DNA of 64,000 nucleotides from Sycon ciliatum (taxonomy: Eukaryota > Porifera > Calcarea > Leucosolenida > Sycettidae). The notes under the pieces were generated by a model. That model did not search any database. It had not been told where the DNA came from and worked only from the letters and a program-made list of their open reading frames with translations. Of the stretch, positions 3,895 to 42,397 are shown piece after piece (position 1 is the first letter of the stretch; the number at the start of each line of letters is the position of its first letter). A program made the position numbers and the translations under genes. The stretch spans positions 11,033,227-11,097,226 of the forward strand of contig NC_088647.1 of the NCBI RefSeq assembly GCF_964019385.1, in the 5' to 3' direction.

Positions 3895-6800
3895 GTTAGT
3901 TATTTTTTAGCCACGTCGTTACTGGTTGTTGGAAAGGTTCCTTCCCCTACGTATGTGGCTTGATTCGCTATCCTTTGTGTAAATTTCAGGAACCTCATGC
4001 TCCGCCACAACCTGCAGCACCAGCTCCTTGGGAATACGAAACTGGAGTGTGAGTTGTTGTACTATCCCGTATGTTACTATTCGAACCTACCAATACACCT
4101 TTATAGCGCTTCATACAAATGAAATTCCAGTCAGTGGCCGGCTGGCGTGTATTTTAATGTGGGGCCTTCGGGACCAAGTACAGTGTAGTATAGTGCACGG
4201 TTGGATTTTTCTAAGGAATTGCATTGCACATCACAAGGGTGTCGTCACAAGACCAGCCAACCATGAGCCAGTTCGTGCGGACTATATTTTGCGATATTGC
4301 AGAAGCCGCCCCATGCTTGCATTTAGAGGTTGGTGCGGCAGCTAGTGGGTGTATAAATATTTCTGGATCGGAGCGACGTGAAGTCAAGCAAACAATGTGG
4401 AGCCACCACCACCCCTCCTAGAGCTTCTCCTGTTTTACTTGTATCGCTTTAGCTATGACTATAATTATAGTGCTACACCCTTGTTGCATGCAACACTTGT
4501 ACAGCCCACCTGTGAACACGTAAACGGGCAATAGGCAGTCAAAGTTCCTCTTGAAAATGCGTACCGCGGGCCGAAGTGGTGACGAACAAAAGTTGCGTCA
4601 CCTACTACGATTTTTGTGTTTCCAATGGTCACCGTATCACTTTGACTGGAGCTCGTGCAAGATACAAGGACAAGTTTATGTTTTCTTCTTAAATTTTCTT
4701 TTTTTTCGCTGTTTAGACAGTGTTTTCCTGCTGAGTGTTCACCAGCACCTGAGAGTCTTGATTTTCGCTTCTCTCTGGATAATTAAACACACCCAGTGTT
4801 GATTGGTCACAGAACCAAAAGAAATCAGCAATCGCCGTGACCGAATTAACAGAGACATCAATCATGGTTTCTTGGCTCGAGACTTAATCCGAATGACAGT
4901 ACAGACAGTACAGACACACCAATGGCTAAACAAAAACCAGCTACTGTTTCTCCTCTACACTGTGAAAACTAGAAAGTCATTGACAAGTTCGTTGAAAGAA
5001 AAATGAAAATGGTCTTCTCCTCACCTGCTCTCCAGTCAAAGTGATGCTACTGCCACTAGAAACAAAATGCGTGGGCGATGCGAAACGCGCGACTTTTTTC
5101 TCACCACTTGGCGCAGGCGCTACGCGTTGTCAAGAAGCTGTGATATCTGCTTTCAACGGCCTATACCAGCTCTGATACATGCCCTCACGGCTGTGCTGTT
5201 CTGACATGTAGGAGCCAGTACTATCTGTGCACGCACTGGCAGACAGGCTGTATAGCAATTATATTTCATAGTGTAGTTGTACACGAGTGTAGCATGACAG
5301 TTTTTGGGCCGCTTTAGAAGGACATGTGAAATAGTGTACACTAAGCCTGTCCCCGTGGATTACAGAATCCTTGATTTTTTTAGCTAGCATATTATCAAGA
5401 GTATATAACCCCCCAAGAGTGTGCAACTCTGCATATGGGGTCTCCGACGGCGAAAACTCACATCACGTGTCTCAGATACCTTTGTACTACGTACAATTAG
5501 GAATTCCGCTAAGACCTGAAAGGTCTGACGTGGAATTCAGGTTACACTAGGAGGTGAAGGCGGAGAATGTGACAGTGTATTAGGCCTCAAATCTTCGCTT
5601 TTCAAATAATTAACAGCGATTTAACCCTTTATGTACCACGCATCTAATGTATGCGTAGGGTACTCCTTGTCAATGATGGACCTATAGGATAAAATCTAGA
5701 CGCATTTTGTATATGCAAGTTATGTTTTTCTGAATCTATAGTAATGAATGGGTCCATTTGTCAACATATTGTAATCCAGCATGCAGCTATAAGTGGAGGG
5801 CATACACGGAATACCCAATTATGAGCCAATTGTGCGTAATTCTGACAATTGAGATCGCTACATTTGAAATAAAGTATAGACGTATCAGGGACGGCCATTG
5901 GGACGCACAGTGACAGAAGGATACCACAGGCACTAGTTCATGCATGAACAGCAACAGAAGGGGCGGAAAACGGATGTATCGTCTAAATACCAGACGCAAA
6001 CAATTGCGTCGAGTATTCAAATTATTGCAATTATTTCAGATTTGAAATATGCAGTTTTTGCTGATCTACTCACGTCGAGCGAGGATTGGTGATTGAGAAG
6101 ACAAGAAATAGTTACTAGGGGATGACCTCCGCCTGCCCTCCCTCTCGCTGCTACTTGGAGAGCGAATGCTGTGATGGCTTCAGCGATGAAAATTGGCAGT
6201 TTCGATTCAGATCCTGAGGAGATATCGCTGCTTCAGCTCTCTCCAGGTTTCTATCACGACTAGAGGATGTCGACATTAGCTGGAGAAGGCTATATCTCTA
6301 TTAGCAGCAGCGTGACGGAACGAAAACACGATCGAAATTGGCAAAATATATCGCAGAGCGCTGCATTTGCGAAGCGCACATTTCGCCGCGATCGGTCTCC
6401 ATACTTTCAAATGGCGACCTACCCATATCATACATCAAAATTTTCAGTGGGATCTCAGCTGTTCACTGCAAAAAACGCGAGTCAATCAGAGAGAGGCCGC
6501 CGCCGAACGGTGCGTCCAAGTGCGGCGTGCCGAACCGTAAATATTTTTACGGTTCGAGATGGGCGCAGTACATAAAGGGTTAAAGAGAAAATTTACACAA
6601 ACTCCAACCTCGTCCCCTTGATATTCTCGCCCTTTCCCAGACTCCTTTGGCCTTTGATGAGCTCATTTATGGACAAGCAAAAGGCAACGTCTGACAGCGG
6701 AGAATGAGACAGGGGCGGCGCGGGTGGGAACACACTGTCACATTCTCCGCCTTCACCTCCTAGTGTAACCTGAATTCCACGTCAGACCTTTCAGGTCCTA

Positions 6801-9800
6801 GCGGAATTCCTAATTACACTTCGGAGGCCCCGGCTACGAATGTGACAGTGTGATGTTTAAAGAAAAAACCTCACATGAGTAGCAAGGTATGAAATTAATG
6901 ACTAATGTATGTTGCCATCGCCACTACACTCTGTCAAGAGAAAGAAGCCGGAAGGAAACAGCATGTTATAACCGCTGCGGACAGATACACTTTCTCAAAT
7001 CATAATGAAACAGATTCAACTGTAGTGTTCCACACAAGCAAAGCAACGGCATGGATAGTGAAATAATCAGGGAGCAGGCATGATCACTATGAGAAACCAT
7101 GCATAGAAATCAGAACCACAGTCCGCACTTGGAGAAGACTCCTCACCCAGTGCTAACCGTCAAGACGGCTTGGCCAAAAGAAGCTTGGCTGTGCGGTCGG
7201 TAATAGTGGCGGATGAATGTGTTGGGCCGTGACCAGTCAGCTGTCGCCAACACATCCGCCAATGACACCCCGGCTTGTCGTTCAGCGCTAGTGAAGGCAC
7301 TCCGCGTAGAATGGGCTGAGAAGTCACTTTCAACACCTGCTGCTTGGAGCAGTGTTGTCACCCATCTGGCCACAGTTGAGGTCGAGACTGGCTGAAACGG
7401 TCGGCGAGTGGACACAACGAGAGCACTCTGCGCTGGTGTAGTGCGGCTGGACTTAGTCACATCTAGATAGGCTTTGATGCACTCCACTGGGCACAGGATC
7501 GGGTCAGCCGGCAGACCTGGCACAAAGAACTTCCGCGGGCCGCCAGAGCGTTGTGTTTTGGTGACGTGAGTCAGCTCAAACTCCACACCATCTGCCAGGA
7601 AGCGCATTGCGCGGATATCCAAGTGACAGATCTCACATACTCTTGCTGCCTGAGCCAGTGCGAGCAGCATCCACAGCTTCCAGGACAGGTGCGACAGGGT
7701 CAAAGCAGTATTCGGGCCCAATGACCGAATGTTTTCTAGAACAGTGGCCACGTCCCACGTACGTGAATAACGAGGCAATGGCGGTCGTTGATTGTAGATA
7801 CCACGCATAACCCGGACGACGCTAGGCGATTGTCCGACGGGTACATTATCGTGGAGTGGCGGTACGGTGGATGACACCGCCGAACGGTACACGTTCAGGG
7901 TACACGTTCAGGGTATGGTATTGCTTGCCTGCCTCATACTGTGTCGCTAGAAAGTTGGCTAATTGAGTAGGGTCCGCCGATACGGGATCCACACGTCGTT
8001 CGCAACACCAGCCCACCCACTGTCGTCATGCTGACTGATACGTTGCGTTGGTGCTAGTTCGCCAGGAGGAGAGCCAGAGAGTGACAGCTCCCTGCGAAAG
8101 GCCTCGCAGCGAGGCTGCTTCCCGGAGATACTCCATACGGTCAGTCGTAGGCGTTGTGCCTGTGGATGGACTTGTCCCTGTGGTTCCAGAACGTCTGACA
8201 ACACTAGTCGTAGCGGAGCACTGCAGGACATTCGGAGCAGCTGAGGGTAATAAGCCTGTGACTGCCAGGCTGGAGCCACCACGATTACCCGTCGAATGTC
8301 GTGTTGCCGGATGTAGCGAAGACACCGGGTGAGCAGGCTGAATGGCGGAAAGGCATAAGCATTCTCCCATAGCTCTGGAGGGGTGGAGAAGGCATCCACT
8401 GCTTCTGCCTCTGGATCTGGACGCCAGCTCGGGTAGCAGGGCAGGCGAGCATTGTGGCGGGCCGCAAACAGATCTACACTCAGCGGGCCAAATGTCTATT
8501 GGATGGTAGTAAACACATCGTACGGGAGCATCCAGTCGCCTGTCTCCTCCACGTGACGGGACCGATAGTCTGCTGTGTGATTCAGGGCTCCTGGCACATG
8601 AACCGCTTCCAGCTCCAGGTGTCGGGCTGCAGCCCACTCCAGCACCTGAATCGCAAGCGTACACAGACGCCGAGAATGAGTGCCTCCCTGATGATTGAGG
8701 TATGCCACGGTGGTCGTATTGTCGATTTCCAACCGGATGGTTTGGTTGGATGCGTTGCGGAGCAGGCTTTTCAAACCTAACCATACCGCGATCAGCTCTT
8801 TCCAGTTGATGTGGTGCGCAGCTTCGGACTCGTACCATGGCCCACCGGCATGCGCCGTATCCACAGCAGCACCCCATCCTACATTGGACGCATCTGAGCT
8901 CATGGTGTCCGAGGGTGGGTCTCTGTGCATGGGTATCGGGCACCCCGCCGTCGTTATCCACCAACGCAGGTCGCTGCAGGCCCATTCGTCCAGCTATCGG
9001 GTCTCGAGACGGTGTGCCAGAGCCTCGTTCAGCAGGAACTGCAGTCCCCGGACATGAAGCATAGCGAGGTGTACTGCAGGGCGCGCTGCAACCATCTTGC
9101 CTGTCAGTGAACGCAGTTCGGCGAGGGTAGCAAATCCGTTATTGCGCAGGCGACGGCACTCGGAGCGAATCTTGTCCAGCTTGTCGCGAGGCAAGGAAAA
9201 TTCCATGCGCACCAAGTTCACTTCGACTCCGAGAAACGTCAGGATCTGCGTCGGCTCCATGATAGATTTCTGGCGGTTGACTATGAAGCCCAGTCGTTCT
9301 AGGAGGGCTGCCACAAACTGGATCTGCTGTGCCACTAGAGCAGGGGAGTGTGCTATTAACAGCCAGTCGTCCAGATAGACAACGATGAGCAGACCCATTG
9401 CACGGAGCCACGCTGCTACTGGACGAAGCACCTTGGTGAACGTGCGGAGTGACTCCGACAGACCGAACAGGAGGCAAGTGTACTGCCATACCTGGTCGTT
9501 CCACATGAACTGGAGGAGGCGTCGGCTGTGAATGTGCACCGGTACCGAGTGAAAGGCGTCCTTCAGATTGAGTTTTGCCAACCACCAGTTCTGCTGAACT
9601 AGCTCGGGTACTACTGCCAACGTTTCCATCTTGAAATGGGAGTTGTCCACAAACTCGTTCAGCGCTTTGAGGTTGAACACTAGCCTCCATCGACCACCGC
9701 TCTTGGGTACCATGAAGTGCGTGCTCTTGAATGTCGCGTCTCGCACTGTAGTGGGCTCGATGCCCCCCCCCCCCCCCCCCGCTGCTGCCATGTTGGACAG

Positions 9801-12800
9801 GGCCTCCTGCAGAGCAACCTGCTCCGCCTGAGCCAGGTGCATCTGTCTGGGAGCATGCCGCTGATGAGGGTGAGCCAGCAATGGGATACGCAGGCCATGC
9901 CGGACGGTACTGCGAACCCATGGGTCCGCCGTCAGTTGCTCCCAGTTCTGCCAGGCCACCGCAATGCGACCAGTGGGTGGAGGTGGATGATGTACCTCCC
10001 ATCGCCAAGGAACGGGAAGCTGCAGCTCCGATGATGGTGTTGGCGATTCTCGGAGCTGCCCCGCATGGCCCACTACTGGGCCTGAGGGCGAGGTGGTGAC
10101 TTGCCCCTCGACCCTGGTGTCCACTGCCCTTGCGGTCTTCCGCGGTGGGGCGAAATGAGCCTCGGTGGGGTGGCTGCTGGCGGTCCCTGCCGTACTGGCG
10201 ACTGAAAAAGGTATGCAGCTTCAGGGTACGCGGTGTCTGGAACGCGAACCCCTTTCGCTGAAAACCCGGCTTTGGCTGTGGCTTGCGCGCCAGCCTCTGC
10301 GCCTCATTCAACGTCGCCTCGGAATCCACTTTCGTGGAGATGGCTGAGATAAACTCCTCACCAAACAGCTCCTTCCCAGTGCCTGGCGGTGGGATACCTT
10401 TGGTTACTCTTGCCACGTCTTTGTCCACAGCCTCGATGATGGACTGGCGGCGGATGCCATTAATCGAAGCCATCGGGTCTCCGACCAGGACAAGTGTGCG
10501 CTGGAGCACATCCTTGACTTCCGCCGATGGTACGGAGAGTTCCTCCACTGCCGGAACACCTTCCTCTGCCTCGACCAGGGCGGAGAGCATGCATGCAACC
10601 GGACCAGAGAGCGATGCCACATCACGTTGAACAGCCGCCCACTGTGAGTCGGATGTCTTTGGGAAGCGGGAACCAGCCCAGCGCAACACTGTATCATCCA
10701 CCTTGGGCACATAGGCTGCTGCCGTGTCAGGCCGTGGATGGTCCTCGTGCATGGCCTTCCGCTGCTCGTCAGAGAGCGGAGACCGAAAATATTTCTCAAC
10801 GTAACTCGTCACCGCCTCAGGGGCGTTGAAAAGGAATTTGCGACTCGCCACCGCAGTGGCCGGTGCGAAGTCCAGAGCTCTGGCGGCTCGTTTGGCTGCA
10901 GGCTCTCCAATATTACTAGTGCCAGTGTTGGCTGCATCACTGCTGGACTCCAGGACATCAGTCCCTGGGCCAGGCAGTGCTTCGTTCTGGGCGGAAACAC
11001 AGAGCCCTACAGCCTGCTGTGCAGCCGAAAACGGATGCTCTCCAGTCGGAGCTAGCCCGTGCGGTGGTAGATGAAACGACCCATAGGCGGGTAGCCTCCA
11101 TGCGGCATGGGCATAGCCGGCACCCCACCACTTCTGCAGACAGTGGGGGATGCGGCAGAAAGCAAATCACGCTGGGTGGGCTGTGGTGGCCTCTCAGGCA
11201 CAGCATTCCCACTCTGGATCTCTGCAGCTCCACGATTTGCCACAAGCGGGTCATGCTGCGTGGGACGCGCAGAACCAGCCGTCCCCTAACTGGGGAGGTC
11301 ACTAACGGATGACATGGCTCTGCAATCAACACGTATGTAGGCTATACGGCTACGTCCAAAGAGAAATAAATCTGCAACTGCAACAATTTGAAGCGAAGAA
11401 AAAGGCCAAAGGAGTGTGGGAAAGGGCGAGAATATCAAGGGGACGAGGTTGGAGTTTGTGTAAATTTTCTCTTTAAATCGCTGTGAATTATTTGAAAAGC
11501 GAAGATTTGAGGCCTAACACACTGTCACATTCGTAGCCGGAGCCTCCGAAGTGTAATTTACAAACGTAGGATAGCGTGCGCGCAATCCGAAAATCTGCCG
11601 TGCTCATGCTGGGGATTTGCATACGCGCAGTGAGTTTCTGTTAGAGAGTGCTTTTTTTAGTACTCTGCTGCTCGCTAAAAACGGGCCGGAAACGTACAAC
11701 TGCGACACTGCACCACGTGATGTGAGTTTTCGCAGTCGGCGTACCCCATAGAAAGGGTATCAGGAGTTGTACACTCTTGGGGGGTTATAATTATACTCTT
11801 GATATTATATACACATCATGCACTATGTGCATGTACAGTACAGCGAGAAAAGTCCGCACAATCACCAGCCCCCCCCCCCCCGCATTTTCGGTCGCTGCCT
11901 ACGCGCCGAAAAATGCGCTTTACCGGCGATGAGCAAACAAATTGAGCAACTTCGATCATGTTTTCATTCAGTTACACTGCTTTTTTTGCGGGGATGTAGA
12001 GTTTATGCGAATTATTTCATGGGGGAGTCAGCGGATTTTCTAATGGCCGCTACACCGATGGGCAATATCAATGTGTACGCACTCATGGTGCAGCATGTCC
12101 CACGCAACCCCTGTGGTCGGTAGAGCACTAAGTATTTTCTATCAATGCCATTGTTTTGTTATATGCAGACCAGCAGCAGCAGCAGTAGCTCCAGCTGAAC
12201 ATCATGACAAAAACCGAGGTGCCCCACCTGCAAGTTATCGTTCATCGTATCAGCAGTGAGTGAAATTTCAACAGTACTTACACTGTGTTCCGTGCGTGAT
12301 GTGCTGTGCAATGTGTTGTGACGACTATAATCCTGCAAAGCATTGCGTTTTAAGCAGTAAATTGTTTCCGCTTCGCTCCACCAAAGTTAAAGTGTGACCA
12401 ATGTGCCAATGCCATGGCTGCACTAAAAAGAATGATGGTATTTCCTGACCTTGTAGTAGGCTCTTTTTTTCGACCAGACGAGACCACACAGTGCTTGCTA
12501 ACCTCGGCACGAACAGTTCACCAGCAGCACTCCACGGCAGCAAGTAGTTACTCCTGACAAGCGTGTTTCGTTCCATAAGATAAGAGGAACTCGTCATAAG
12601 AGAGCAGATGTTGAATGAAAAGAGTTGGATAAGAGAATGCTATTTTGTAGACGAGATTAAGATACTGGTGCAAGGCGTATACACTCAACTAACACACATA
12701 TGTGACAAACTAGCTTAAATCAAATAGTGTAGAATGGAAGTGTTTGAACCCTGCCAGACACAACTAGCGGAAGTGCTAGTTGTACACGAGTGTAGCATGA

Positions 12801-15800
12801 CAGTTTTTGGGCTGCTTTAGAAGGACATGTGACTTGAAAAAGTGTACACTATGCCTATCCCCGTGGATTACGCGGCTGTGGATTTTGCATCATCGAACAA
12901 GGATCGCATTTTCTTACAATTGACGTCCCGCGTCTTTGATTTTTTAGCTAGCATGTACACATCATGCACTATGCACATGTACAGTACAGCGAGGAAAGTC
13001 CGCACAATCCCCAGTCAACCTGCTACGACTGAGGTAAAACTAAGACTACCGCAGAATCCCGCGGATATGCCCAAGGACTTACCTGTTTCACAAGGACATT
13101 TCGGTGGGCTTATACAAGAACATGGGCTTATCCGCGGGCATGGGCTTATACGCTGACACCAAAATTGTGCTATTGGAAAGTACCAAGGAAGTGAGAAGTA
13201 CATTGCTGAAAGCCAGTATTCAAACACAAACAATCGATGATTGTGTTGAAATGTACAAACAAACGAAAACGTACATGTACATGGTACGACCAAGAGTCCA
13301 TAGTTTATGGACTCTTGGTACGACCTAGGCCCATGGGCTTGTACGACGAGGCTTCCAGATGTTTGAACTTGACCTGGACTTATGCGCTAGCATGGGCGTA
13401 TACGCGGGTGGGCTTACCCGCGGGATTCTACGGTAACTCGAGCAGGTAAGATCACAAGCTACAGTCCGTTTCAAAAAGATTTACAATCCTGGCGATCGCC
13501 CGCGGAGTTCGGCGTCTTACCGTATGAGCACTCGAGCGCTGCCTGGAAAAACTGACTGTGAACTCGAAGAAATATTCCGCGCGAAAGCAGGAAAAATGAC
13601 AACTCACTCACGTTGACACAGTCATGTACGTCTGGTTTACAACAAACGAGTTCTTCCTCGTATCGATAATGGAGTCAGAGAGGACATGTCGAAACGAAAG
13701 TGTTGTAAATGTTGACGAGCTGCATGGGTCCGTTTTGTGACCAAAATAGTTTCTTTGAGCTGCGATGCAATTTACTCACCGTGTGATGAAAACGACATCG
13801 ACACGGACTCATTCCCAAGGCCATGACTTGGCAAAGCTATCCGTATGACTTCGACGACATTTTGAGAAAAGCAGACGCTTGTAATTGTGAACGCTGATAG
13901 AAGACGGCGTTGACTGCTAAATTCAAATAAATTGGCGATCTTGAAATACTAAAATAAATCTCAAAAAGCTACAGCGCGATGACTTCCATTATAATTCACT
14001 CACACCATTGCAGTGTTGTGGGTGTGTTCACATGGCGTGAGCCAGTCAAGTGTCAGTCAGTTCGGCAGGAAGCGCGAGCTCCAACAACAAGTCGCTTGGT
14101 GCAGCCATCTTCTTTGTCTTGTACCAGCTTGATCACCAAAACAATGAAAAAAAAGTTTGACTTGAGGATAGGTTGGGATTTGAACTCACAACTTCATGGT
14201 CAGCAGACAGCATTCATAACCACAAGGCCAAAAAGGAAAGGATAAATCGTGGGTTTTGATAAAAAATTGATGCTGGCTTCCTGGGCAAATTGTAAACCAT
14301 GGGAAAAGGCCGAAAACCTGGCCGAAATTCTAACTCCTTAACGGTTGGTCCAATTGTTCCGAAACCTTCACAGAACAATTTGCCGTGTCCTAACAAGCCA
14401 TTCTATGTACTGTAGAGGCAGAAAATTTCGTCGGTCAATAATTTCGTCCAACTCCAAAGAAAAGGAGTTCGTCCGGTTGAAAATTTCGTCCATGGATCAT
14501 AAGAGTGTATAGAAATGCTGGACAAATCGATATTCGTCCTACATTTAATTTAGTCCAAAAGCTCCTTGGACGAAAAAGACGAAATTAAATTCCAGACGAA
14601 TATTTCTGCTTATACAGTACTTTGTTGTCCAAATTTCCCTTATCTTCATACTTTTTAAGACCCAAACCTGATTGTGAATCTTTTTGAAACAGACTATAGC
14701 ATGGAATGACAGCATCGTACAGCAGTACGATGTACTGTCGTGGACATGGAAATCCGGTCGCACGTCTAGCGGCCCCAGGGCGCTGGCCATGCAGCCGTCC
14801 GTATAAGCAGTACACGCGAGCATGTAATAATTATGCGCTGCTGGTTGCATCGGCCGGATCAACATGATTGATTGTGCACTGCATGCAACGTTCTGTACGT
14901 GCTGAGGGCGCCGGCCCCGGTCAATCGACTGGATTTCCATGTCCAAGACAGTAGTACGGTGTAGTATGCCGTACAGCAGTACGGTGTAGTCAAGATACGA
15001 CAATTGAGCAATGATCAGAAAGGGTCGTGCGAAAAGGTGAAACACCCACATTCCGATTTAAACCGGGCCTATACACCAATATACAAGATGTACTCCAAAT
15101 TGGTGCAATGTATGTGTGTAATGAATATTCAGTGTTCTAAAAGTGGGTGGGCAGCTTGAATACCTTTGAAATAGTGCAGTAAGCAACAAGAATAATCAAG
15201 AATGGCTGAAGATTGCGGGGGAATGATCAACACATTCGCAGCTGCATCCAGCTTGGAGTCGTTCCACAATCTCATCTTCCATTTGTTCATCCGCAGCTGA
15301 AGACATGACATCGCTGCCGTCACTAGCCTCAGACTCAGATGTTATCTCAGAGGACGACTCTTCCGCCTCTGACAAGTCATCCGCCACCTTGAGCTGCTTC
15401 GCAGCAGGAGATAACCGCTGTGATTCCGCCTCGCTGTCGACATCGATGTCGGAACCAAAGAACGTCCCATCCTCACTCTGAACTTCAGCGGCTACTTCAG
15501 CATCCACTCCCGACCAGGCGCGAACTGTACACAATAACCGCCGTGTGTGCTCTGCGAGCAGCTCTGGCGTGCGCAGCCATTGCGTCAAGATCAATGAACA
15601 CTTGATTCGCCACTCGACGCGACTTCAACTAACTTCAAAACATTTACTTCAAGCAAGGAGTTCAAGAAGTAAAGAACTCGTCGCACTGTTTGCAGTGCGA
15701 TCAAAAAATCGTTGAACGTCACAAATCGACTTTTTCTCGAAAAAATTACGAAATCTCTAAGGGTCGTTTTCGCTCATATTAGGAAATGTTTTTCAAGTAA

Positions 15801-36689: not shown

Positions 36690-36715
36690 CAAGAGTAGAT
36701 ATTTATCTACTCTTG
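36690..36715. mobile_element. 26-bp palindrome, CAAGAGT type
   Basis: Arms CAAGAGTAGATA and TATCTACTCTTG flank TT. The flanks AGCCCAT and GTGCCAT agree only in the last four bases, so the duplication is decayed or the insertion was followed by rearrangement. It lies 16 bp before a solo foldback arm (36732). Confidence 0.5.
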
Positions 36716-40545: not shown

Positions 40546-41214
40546 TATTAGAGATAATTATATTATTATAATTAGGGAGGTTCTGCTCTACCTTTTGGGA
40601 ACGCGACGCAAAGAATCACGCGAACTTTCTTCGCGTTCCCGTAACGTAAAGAAATGCTGTTCTGCTCTACGTTTCACCTTGAGAAGTCACGTGGAATGTG
40701 TACTGGGAATTTCCCCTTCCATATTTGGCAGTTTTCTGCATGCAGTTGATCGATACCCAGCAAATCCGTACGCATTTTCTCTGCGTGTGCCACAACGTAG
40801 AGAACCCCATCTCCGCGTAGAAATCTGGAGGCAAAACACGTGAAGCCGTAGACTCTAACCCAGACACCTGCTCTCTACGTGATTTCTCTACGTTTCACGT
40901 ATAGCAGAACCTCCCTACTAGAGAGGTTCTGCTATACGTGAAACGTAGAGAAATCACGTAGAGAGCAGGTGTCTGGGTTAGCATGGTTAGAGTCTACGGC
41001 TTCGCGTGTTTTGGCTCCAGACTCGACTACAAAAAAATTGTAGGGAGGTTCTGCTCTACGTTTTGGGAACGCGACGCAAAGAATCACGCGAACTTTCTTC
41101 GCGTTCCCGTAACGTAAAGAAATGTTTTTCTGCTCTACGTTTCACCTAGAGTAGTCACGTGGAATGTGTACTGGGAATTTCCCCTTCCATATTTGGCAGT
41201 TTTCTGCATGCAGT

Positions 41215-41560
41215 CAAGAGTACATAACCAAAGGGTTTTTCGATTTTGACAGCATGTTACAAGGCGAGGACGCGTAGTGCTCCTGACTACAACCATAAAC
41301 CGGTTGGCAGAGTCCCGGTCTTGCGACCATTTGAACCGTATTGGGAAAACCCAGGTTCGGACCCTCGTTACTCTACGGGTTGGTAGGATTTTTATAATTG
41401 CAATACGGTTCAAATGGTCGCAAGACCGGGACTCTGCCAACCGGTTTATGGTTGTAGTCAGGAGCACTACGCGTCCTCGCCTTGTAACATGCTGTCAAAA
41501 TCGAAAAACATGTTAACTACCAAGCAAGGCTTCTGTATATAACCAAAGGGTGTACTCTTG
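41215..41560. mobile_element. 346-bp foldback element with CAAGAGT ends and 7-bp duplication
   Basis: Begins CAAGAGTACATAACC and ends GGTGTACTCTTG. Perfect 7-bp repeats ATGCAGT flank it (41208-41214 and 41561-41567), and other copies of the host repeat have one ATGCAGT at this point. Inside, 108-bp arms (about 41236-41343 and 41405-41512) appear perfectly complementary around a spacer of roughly 60 bp. Confidence 0.85.
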
Positions 41561-41893
41561 ATGCAGTTGATCGATACCCTGCAAATCCGTACGCATTTTC
41601 TCTGCGTGTGCCACAACGTAGAGAACCCCATCTCCGCGTAGAAATCTGGAGCCAAAACACGCGAAGCCGTAGACTCTAACCCAGGCCAGACACCTGCTCT
41701 CTACGTGATTTCTCTACGTTTCACGTATAGCAGAACCTCCCTAGCCCTACTGAGATGGGGTTCTCTACGTTGTGGCACACGCAGAGAAAATGCGTACGGA
41801 TTTGCTGGGTATCGATCAACTGCATGCAGAAAACTGCCAAATATGGAAGGGAAATTCCCAGTACACATTCTACTTGACTTCTCTAGGTGAAAC

Positions 41894-41925
41894 CAAGAGT
41901 ACATAACCTGGGTTATGTACTCTTG
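41894..41925. mobile_element. 32-bp palindromic insertion with perfect 7-bp duplication
   Basis: Arms CAAGAGTACATAACC and GGTTATGTACTCTTG flank TG. Direct repeats GTGAAAC lie outside (41887-41893 and 41926-41932). The other copies of the host repeat read GGTGAAACGTAGAG with a single GTGAAAC at this position. The arms equal the outermost bases of the 346-bp element at 41215-41560. Confidence 0.85.
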
Positions 41926-42397
41926 GTGAAACGTAGAGCAGAACAGCATTTCTTATACGTTACGGGAACGCGAAGAAAGTTCGCGTGATTCTTTGCGTCG
42001 CGTTCCCAATCCCAACACGTAGAGCAGAACCTCCCTAGTACTAGGGAGGTTCTGCTCTACGTTTTGGGAACGCGACGCAAAGAATCACGCGAACTTTCTT
42101 CGCGTTCCCGTAACGTAAAGAAATGCTGTTCTGCTCTACGTTTCACCTAGAGAAGTCACGTGGAATGTGTACTGGGAATTTCCCCTTCCATATTTGGCAG
42201 TTTTCTGCATGCAGTTGATCGATACCCGGTACCCAGCAAATCCGTACGCATTTTCTCTGCGTGTGCCACAACGTAGAGAACCCCATCTCCGCGTAGAAAT
42301 CTGGAGCCAAAACACGCGAAGCCGTAGACTCTAACCCAGACACCTGCTCTCTACGTGATTTCTCTACGTTTCACGTATAGCAGAACCTCCCTATAAC

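Follow-up and report, generated by a model that had tools for sequence, protein, structure and literature searches.

We found that a 32-bp palindrome in the genome of the calcareous sponge Sycon ciliatum is very probably the excision footprint of a larger transposon and not a tiny mobile element. The palindrome lies in a window of 64,000 nucleotides (C5:11033227-11097226), the whole stretch of DNA that was analyzed, to which the positions below refer unless a contig is named. We favor an excision footprint because one and the same target occurs empty, filled by long inserts, or scarred, with nothing in between. Footprints of this kind are already known; the case stands out by the abundance of scars and by the series at a single target. 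The 32 bp themselves probably have no function of their own.

The palindrome (41,894-41,925) reads CAAGAGTACATAACC-TG-GGTTATGTACTCTTG and stands between two copies of GTGAAAC, at 41,887-41,893 and 41,926-41,932 (both plus strand). Its left arm, CAAGAGTACATAACC (41,894-41,908, plus strand; 15 nt), equals the tip of intact ends that begin CAAGAGTACATAAC, and its right arm, GGTTATGTACTCTTG (41,911-41,925, minus strand; 15 nt), is inverted. The joint, TG (41,909-41,910), can be parsed as an additional T and then G, the 16th base of the right remnant, so that the palindrome would consist of 15 nt, the additional T, and 16 nt, or it can be divided in an equivalent way. Comparison within the window confirms that this part of the host repeat is present in three other copies, all on the minus strand, which carry one GTGAAAC each (40,671-40,677, 41,139-41,145, and 42,140-42,146) and no palindrome, as the sequence-only reading had described. 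What these sister copies record is an insertion with target duplication: a transposon with CAAGAGTACATAACC ends entered GTGAAAC in the host repeat and duplicated the 7-mer. An assembly artefact is an unlikely source of the palindrome, because like inserts recur at the same target in host-repeat copies on other contigs.

Related elements and scars are present elsewhere in the window. An element of 346 bp (41,215-41,560) is still in place between copies of its target duplication, ATGCAGT (41,208-41,214 and 41,561-41,567). The palindrome arms had been called identical to its tips; this is so for the left tip (15 of 15 bases), whereas the right tip shares the first 10 bases only. The same element contains a foldback (41,235-41,509) with perfectly complementary arms of 109 nt, unlike its short tips. 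Another element with related ends (CAAGAGTATATAACCCCCCAAGAGTGTGCAACTC; 5,396-11,801, target duplication ATATTAT) has grown to 6.4 kb by a further insertion. It encloses long open frames, which we take to be a retrotransposon insertion; the minus-strand frames at 7,143-10,851 presumably encode a reverse transcriptase/RNase H and a tyrosine recombinase-like (DIRS-like) protein. A second scar of 27 bp with CAAGAGTCCATA arms (13,291-13,317) has a perfect 7-bp duplication, GTACGAC, and a 26-bp palindrome with CAAGAGTAGATA arms (36,690-36,715) is a probable older scar, its flanks AGCCCAT and GTGCCAT agreeing at only 4 of 7 positions. A Pfam scan of a short stretch of the window gave no match.

Genome-wide, the pattern CAAGAGTAC-N(0-30)-GTACTCTTG occurs at 2,174 places and its reversed control at 0. 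The count is of places and not of independent events, since some sit in dispersed repeats. Flanks were compared in 64 distinct palindromes, made up of the listed C1 places and others picked for closeness to the 32-mer, with identical flanks merged. The 7-bp flanking repeats were perfect in 29, matched at 6 of 7 positions in 15, and matched at 5 or fewer in 20; in a control whose right 7-mer came from a position 20-100 bases distant, 0 were perfect and 1 matched at 6/7 (n = 630). The consecutive C1 list alone (n = 45, hand count) gave 16 perfect and 12 at 6/7, seven of its entries (L011, L012, L015, and L040-L043) being copies of one repeat. In a small control, 13 other palindromes from the same sequence sample, all without these tips, had no perfect 7-bp flanks. 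The excess of 7-bp flanking repeats on which the sequence-only reading had staked its case is therefore large, and it is expected whether bare ends move or a larger element leaves. A target duplication on both sides, set against the empty site in relatives, is found in the window, and flanks matching at 6/7 or better are found in 44 of the 64 palindromes. Against a footprint stand the remaining 20, which include two of the nine exact copies of the 32-mer in the 538-Mb genome.

The 29 perfect duplications give a consensus of GTANTAC (T2 in 27, A6 in 26, G1 and C7 in 19 each, T5 in 18, and A3 in 11). GTANTAC borders the palindrome on both sides at 80 places in all, 50 of them listed; among the listed places the free middle base agrees between the two sides in 41 of 50, or in 35 of 43 distinct strings, where chance would give a quarter.

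One proposal of the sequence-only reading was that a transposase moves a bare pair of ends, lifting palindromes of about 32 bp and inserting them elsewhere. The nine exact 32-mers are where this proposal fares best: six have perfect, mutually different 7-bp duplications, as direct insertion gives, and a seventh (L008) matches at 6/7. The other two lack a flanking repeat at the immediate border (L002, 0/7; L057, 3/7); the L057 palindrome is one of a pair that GTAGTAC brackets jointly. We nevertheless regard the movement of bare ends as highly improbable. The 32-mer accounts for only nine of the 2,174 places, the joints are very diverse (the listed places whose GTANTAC flanks agree hold 35 distinct strings), and some palindromes retain just 6-10 nt of one end. 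Further evidence against it comes from the structure of intact ends and from the single-target series, both described below.

Intact ends have the form CAAGAGTACATAA-N(0-12)-AGAGTGTGCAAC, the tip followed directly by a second motif, and number 4,492 genome-wide. Among 100 listed ends, 72 make 36 head-to-head pairs and 28 are unpaired; the pairs span 266-1,388 bp with a peak at 280-283 bp (17 pairs). Provided that most ends are paired, the class would have about two thousand intact copies, roughly as many as there are scar places. These unexcised elements look like ordinary MITEs, whereas the 32-bp object would be the remainder after one has left: the 32-mer is without the second motif, AGAGTGTGCAAC, a putative binding site, and hence would lack the intact sites of a transposition-competent unit. 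We measured how much of each end is kept in the 44 palindromes with flanks of at least 6/7, using only end forms seen beside the second motif. Each side keeps 9-19 nt, the search itself having required 9 nt per side with no more than 30 nt between them; lengths of 15-17 nt are commonest (43 of 88 sides), 78 sides keep at most 17 nt, ten keep 18-19 nt, and none keeps more than 19. The ten longer sides hold more than a fixed 17-nt cut would permit, which counts against our reading. The second motif was found in 0 of 79 palindromes, a set that joins the flank sample and the GTANTAC-flanked places and counts at least three sites twice; two of the end models used for this count came from the palindromes themselves. 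The scars thus hold only the outermost bases of intact ends, around variable joints. Both the 19-nt limit and the missing motif, which is present on intact ends, are further points against the transposition of bare ends.

The loss of the interior could also have been an ordinary deletion, by replication slippage or hairpin processing between the inverted ends and without any transposase. Inverted repeats are prone to deletion in general, which lends this idea some support. We looked for larger remnants and found paired tips with a spacer of 31-61 nt at 312 places genome-wide, against the 2,174 with a spacer of 0-30. By eye, among about 50 of those listed, roughly half hold a further tip, as two scars in tandem would, four retain the second motif, and the rest hold other filler; the four still contain some of the interior and have the look of simple internal deletions. 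Because kept ends reach at most 19 nt, the second motif is in none of the 79 palindromes, and only 312 places have the longer spacer, we conclude that remnants mostly stop before the second motif. Deletion would leave many remnant sizes, and the kept ends stop at 19 nt, short of that motif; we consider ordinary deletion very unlikely as the source of the scars.

The sizes of inserts at one target point the same way. The host repeat is dispersed, and its GTGAAAC site, searched with a gap of 0-60, has 329 matches genome-wide. Among 100 listed sites, 91 are empty, seven are scarred, no two of these scars being alike and one being double, and an 8-bp change is present in the last two. Exact junctions at this target number 24 on the left and 27 on the right; pairing them by contig, strand, and order yields 21 inserts, of which eleven measure 18-39 bp (including that of the window), ten measure 135-2,970 bp, and none falls within 40-134 bp. 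Three left and six right junctions are unpaired, two of the six being scars already seen among the sites with a gap of 0-60. The long inserts include ones of 266, 303, 303, 322, and 336 bp, close to intact-element sizes; judged by size and ends, we infer that the long inserts are intact elements, apart from the 135-bp insert, which could be several scars in tandem. One target would thus carry elements and scars of a single class, ten long and eleven short, and it occurs in three states. The two size groups are not the spread that deletion would leave. The long inserts at the very same target, shared with scars of three arm types (TAC, TTC, and TAG), and the scar at C1:31827308 with one arm trimmed to about 6 nt, likewise speak against moving bare ends. 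The sequence-only reading was right that a transposon had inserted with a 7-bp duplication, while the present 32 bp are best read not as a transposition product but as a remnant. Its other proposal, that a larger insertion lost its interior, comes close, the loss being best read as excision and healing.

Several further observations were made at this and other targets. Two host-repeat copies (C1:7634017-7634049 and C1:64716420-64716452) have the 8-bp GTATACGC at or beside GTGAAAC. Tandem double scars with three copies of one target 7-mer occur at L006 1494-1577, C2:3133417-3133500, C4:28016263-28016368, and C4:34074133-34074222, as if a healed target had been struck and vacated again. Copies of another repeat (L011-L015 and L040-L044) have inserts of 26, 30, 36, and 37 bp, bounded by CAAGAGTAC tips, at a shared site; we dropped these as a second one-site series, since the variation may be duplication within the insert.

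How the scars would have formed is suggested by the P superfamily. The series at the GTGAAAC target indicates that the element was later cut out. If the cuts were like those of the P superfamily, they would fall at the tip on one strand and about 16-19 nt further in on the other, leaving on each flank a single-stranded tail made of the outermost 16-19 nt of the element. The cell would then join both tails with small trims or additions, and because the tails are inverted copies of each other, a near-perfect palindrome would result between the target duplications. Passages of PMC7776569 describe a P transposase cut of one strand 17 nt inside the end as unusual, atypically long, and distinctive of P. 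In fly P-element excision, according to PMC2895639, the flanks are left with 17-nt non-complementary tails, and the repairs in its Table 1 run from one duplication through a portion of one end, the joint, and a portion of the other end to the second duplication; in many of them more of the ends was lost, with long microhomology. Those junctions resemble the sponge scars in having a duplication, at most 17 nt per end, microhomology, and a flush or short-insert joint. They differ in being assay-derived and having an 8-bp duplication (parts of PMC2895639), whereas the scars here are natural, number thousands, have 7-bp duplications, retain up to 19 nt, and come from another end sequence. By eye, a few joints hinted at inserts templated by the arms, which would mark polymerase-theta joining; the count was 1 of 11 against a shuffled expectation of 1.3, not above chance, and we rejected this candidate.

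Other features also recall the P superfamily. Galileo, a member, makes 7-bp duplications with the consensus GTANTAC and has many non-autonomous copies, as here, while unlike the elements here it has long repetitive ends (portions of PMC4168063 and PMC2775673). A word search of these two papers turned up no footprints, and no Galileo-like gene was tied to the ends in the regions examined here. The 29 perfect duplications fit the 7-8-bp length and GTANTAC-like palindromic preference of the superfamily, as given in part of PMC4168063. The tips here begin CAAGAG, and the fly P end likewise begins with CA (CATGATG.., in a section of PMC2895639). Domain searches of the genome gave 44 matches to PF21787 (P-type RNase H), several of which lie in long, multicopy open frames, two to PF21788, and 0 to PF12017, for which the control was likewise silent. 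One frame, at L064, matches the solved P transposase 6p5a (E = 2.9e-6). This frame (L064 1230-4178; 983 aa) has GLI-like zinc fingers (421-485) and a P-transposase-like region (667-937), and four places in the genome have an identical score and an open frame of identical length. We found no such ends paired around the P-type gene in L064 (7.3 kb) or in the stretches of about 2.7 kb lying 3' of three other P-type genes (L065-L070); L066 and L067 contain what look like scars.

Because the P-type genes that we examined do not lie between these ends, we hold with more confidence that the scars work like P-type footprints than that the element belongs to the P superfamily. The transposon might instead lie outside that superfamily and also cut far inside its ends, a special case of an excision footprint, so that our confidence in the two overlaps; we consider it possible, if rather unlikely. 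In its favor are the lack of a P-type gene between these ends in the four gene families looked at, the absence of a PF12017 match, where the control was equally silent, and the longest insert at GTGAAAC (2,970 bp, C8:26756842-26759811), which overlaps no PF21787 or PF21788 match. That insert has CAAGAG/CTCTTG tips and is about the size of an autonomous P element. The Galileo-like target, tips that begin with CA, kept ends near 17 nt, and the 44 P-type RNase H matches are evidence on the other side.

Read as an excision footprint, what looks paradoxical, a transposon consisting of nothing but its ends, becomes legible evidence of excision, and a caution follows: a short palindrome between target duplications is not necessarily a mobile unit. 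In the openly licensed literature, judged by titles and the beginnings of abstracts, we found no genome-wide natural set of P-type footprints. It seems to us an evenly balanced proposition that this genome preserves a natural record of break repair in the germline, with thousands of scars of several arm types, from breaks of known tail sequence, and one dispersed-repeat target that is empty, filled, or healed; that the position of the inner cut may be set by where the second motif begins (16-19 nt) and not by a fixed distance of 17 nt; and that healed sites, their target retained, may be hit again to give stacked scars. With 2,174 places of one arm type and the one-target series, one genome assembly could reveal the frequency with which such a transposon departs, and the same scars could reveal how germline cells repair a break that has long non-complementary tails and how deep within the ends the cut lies.
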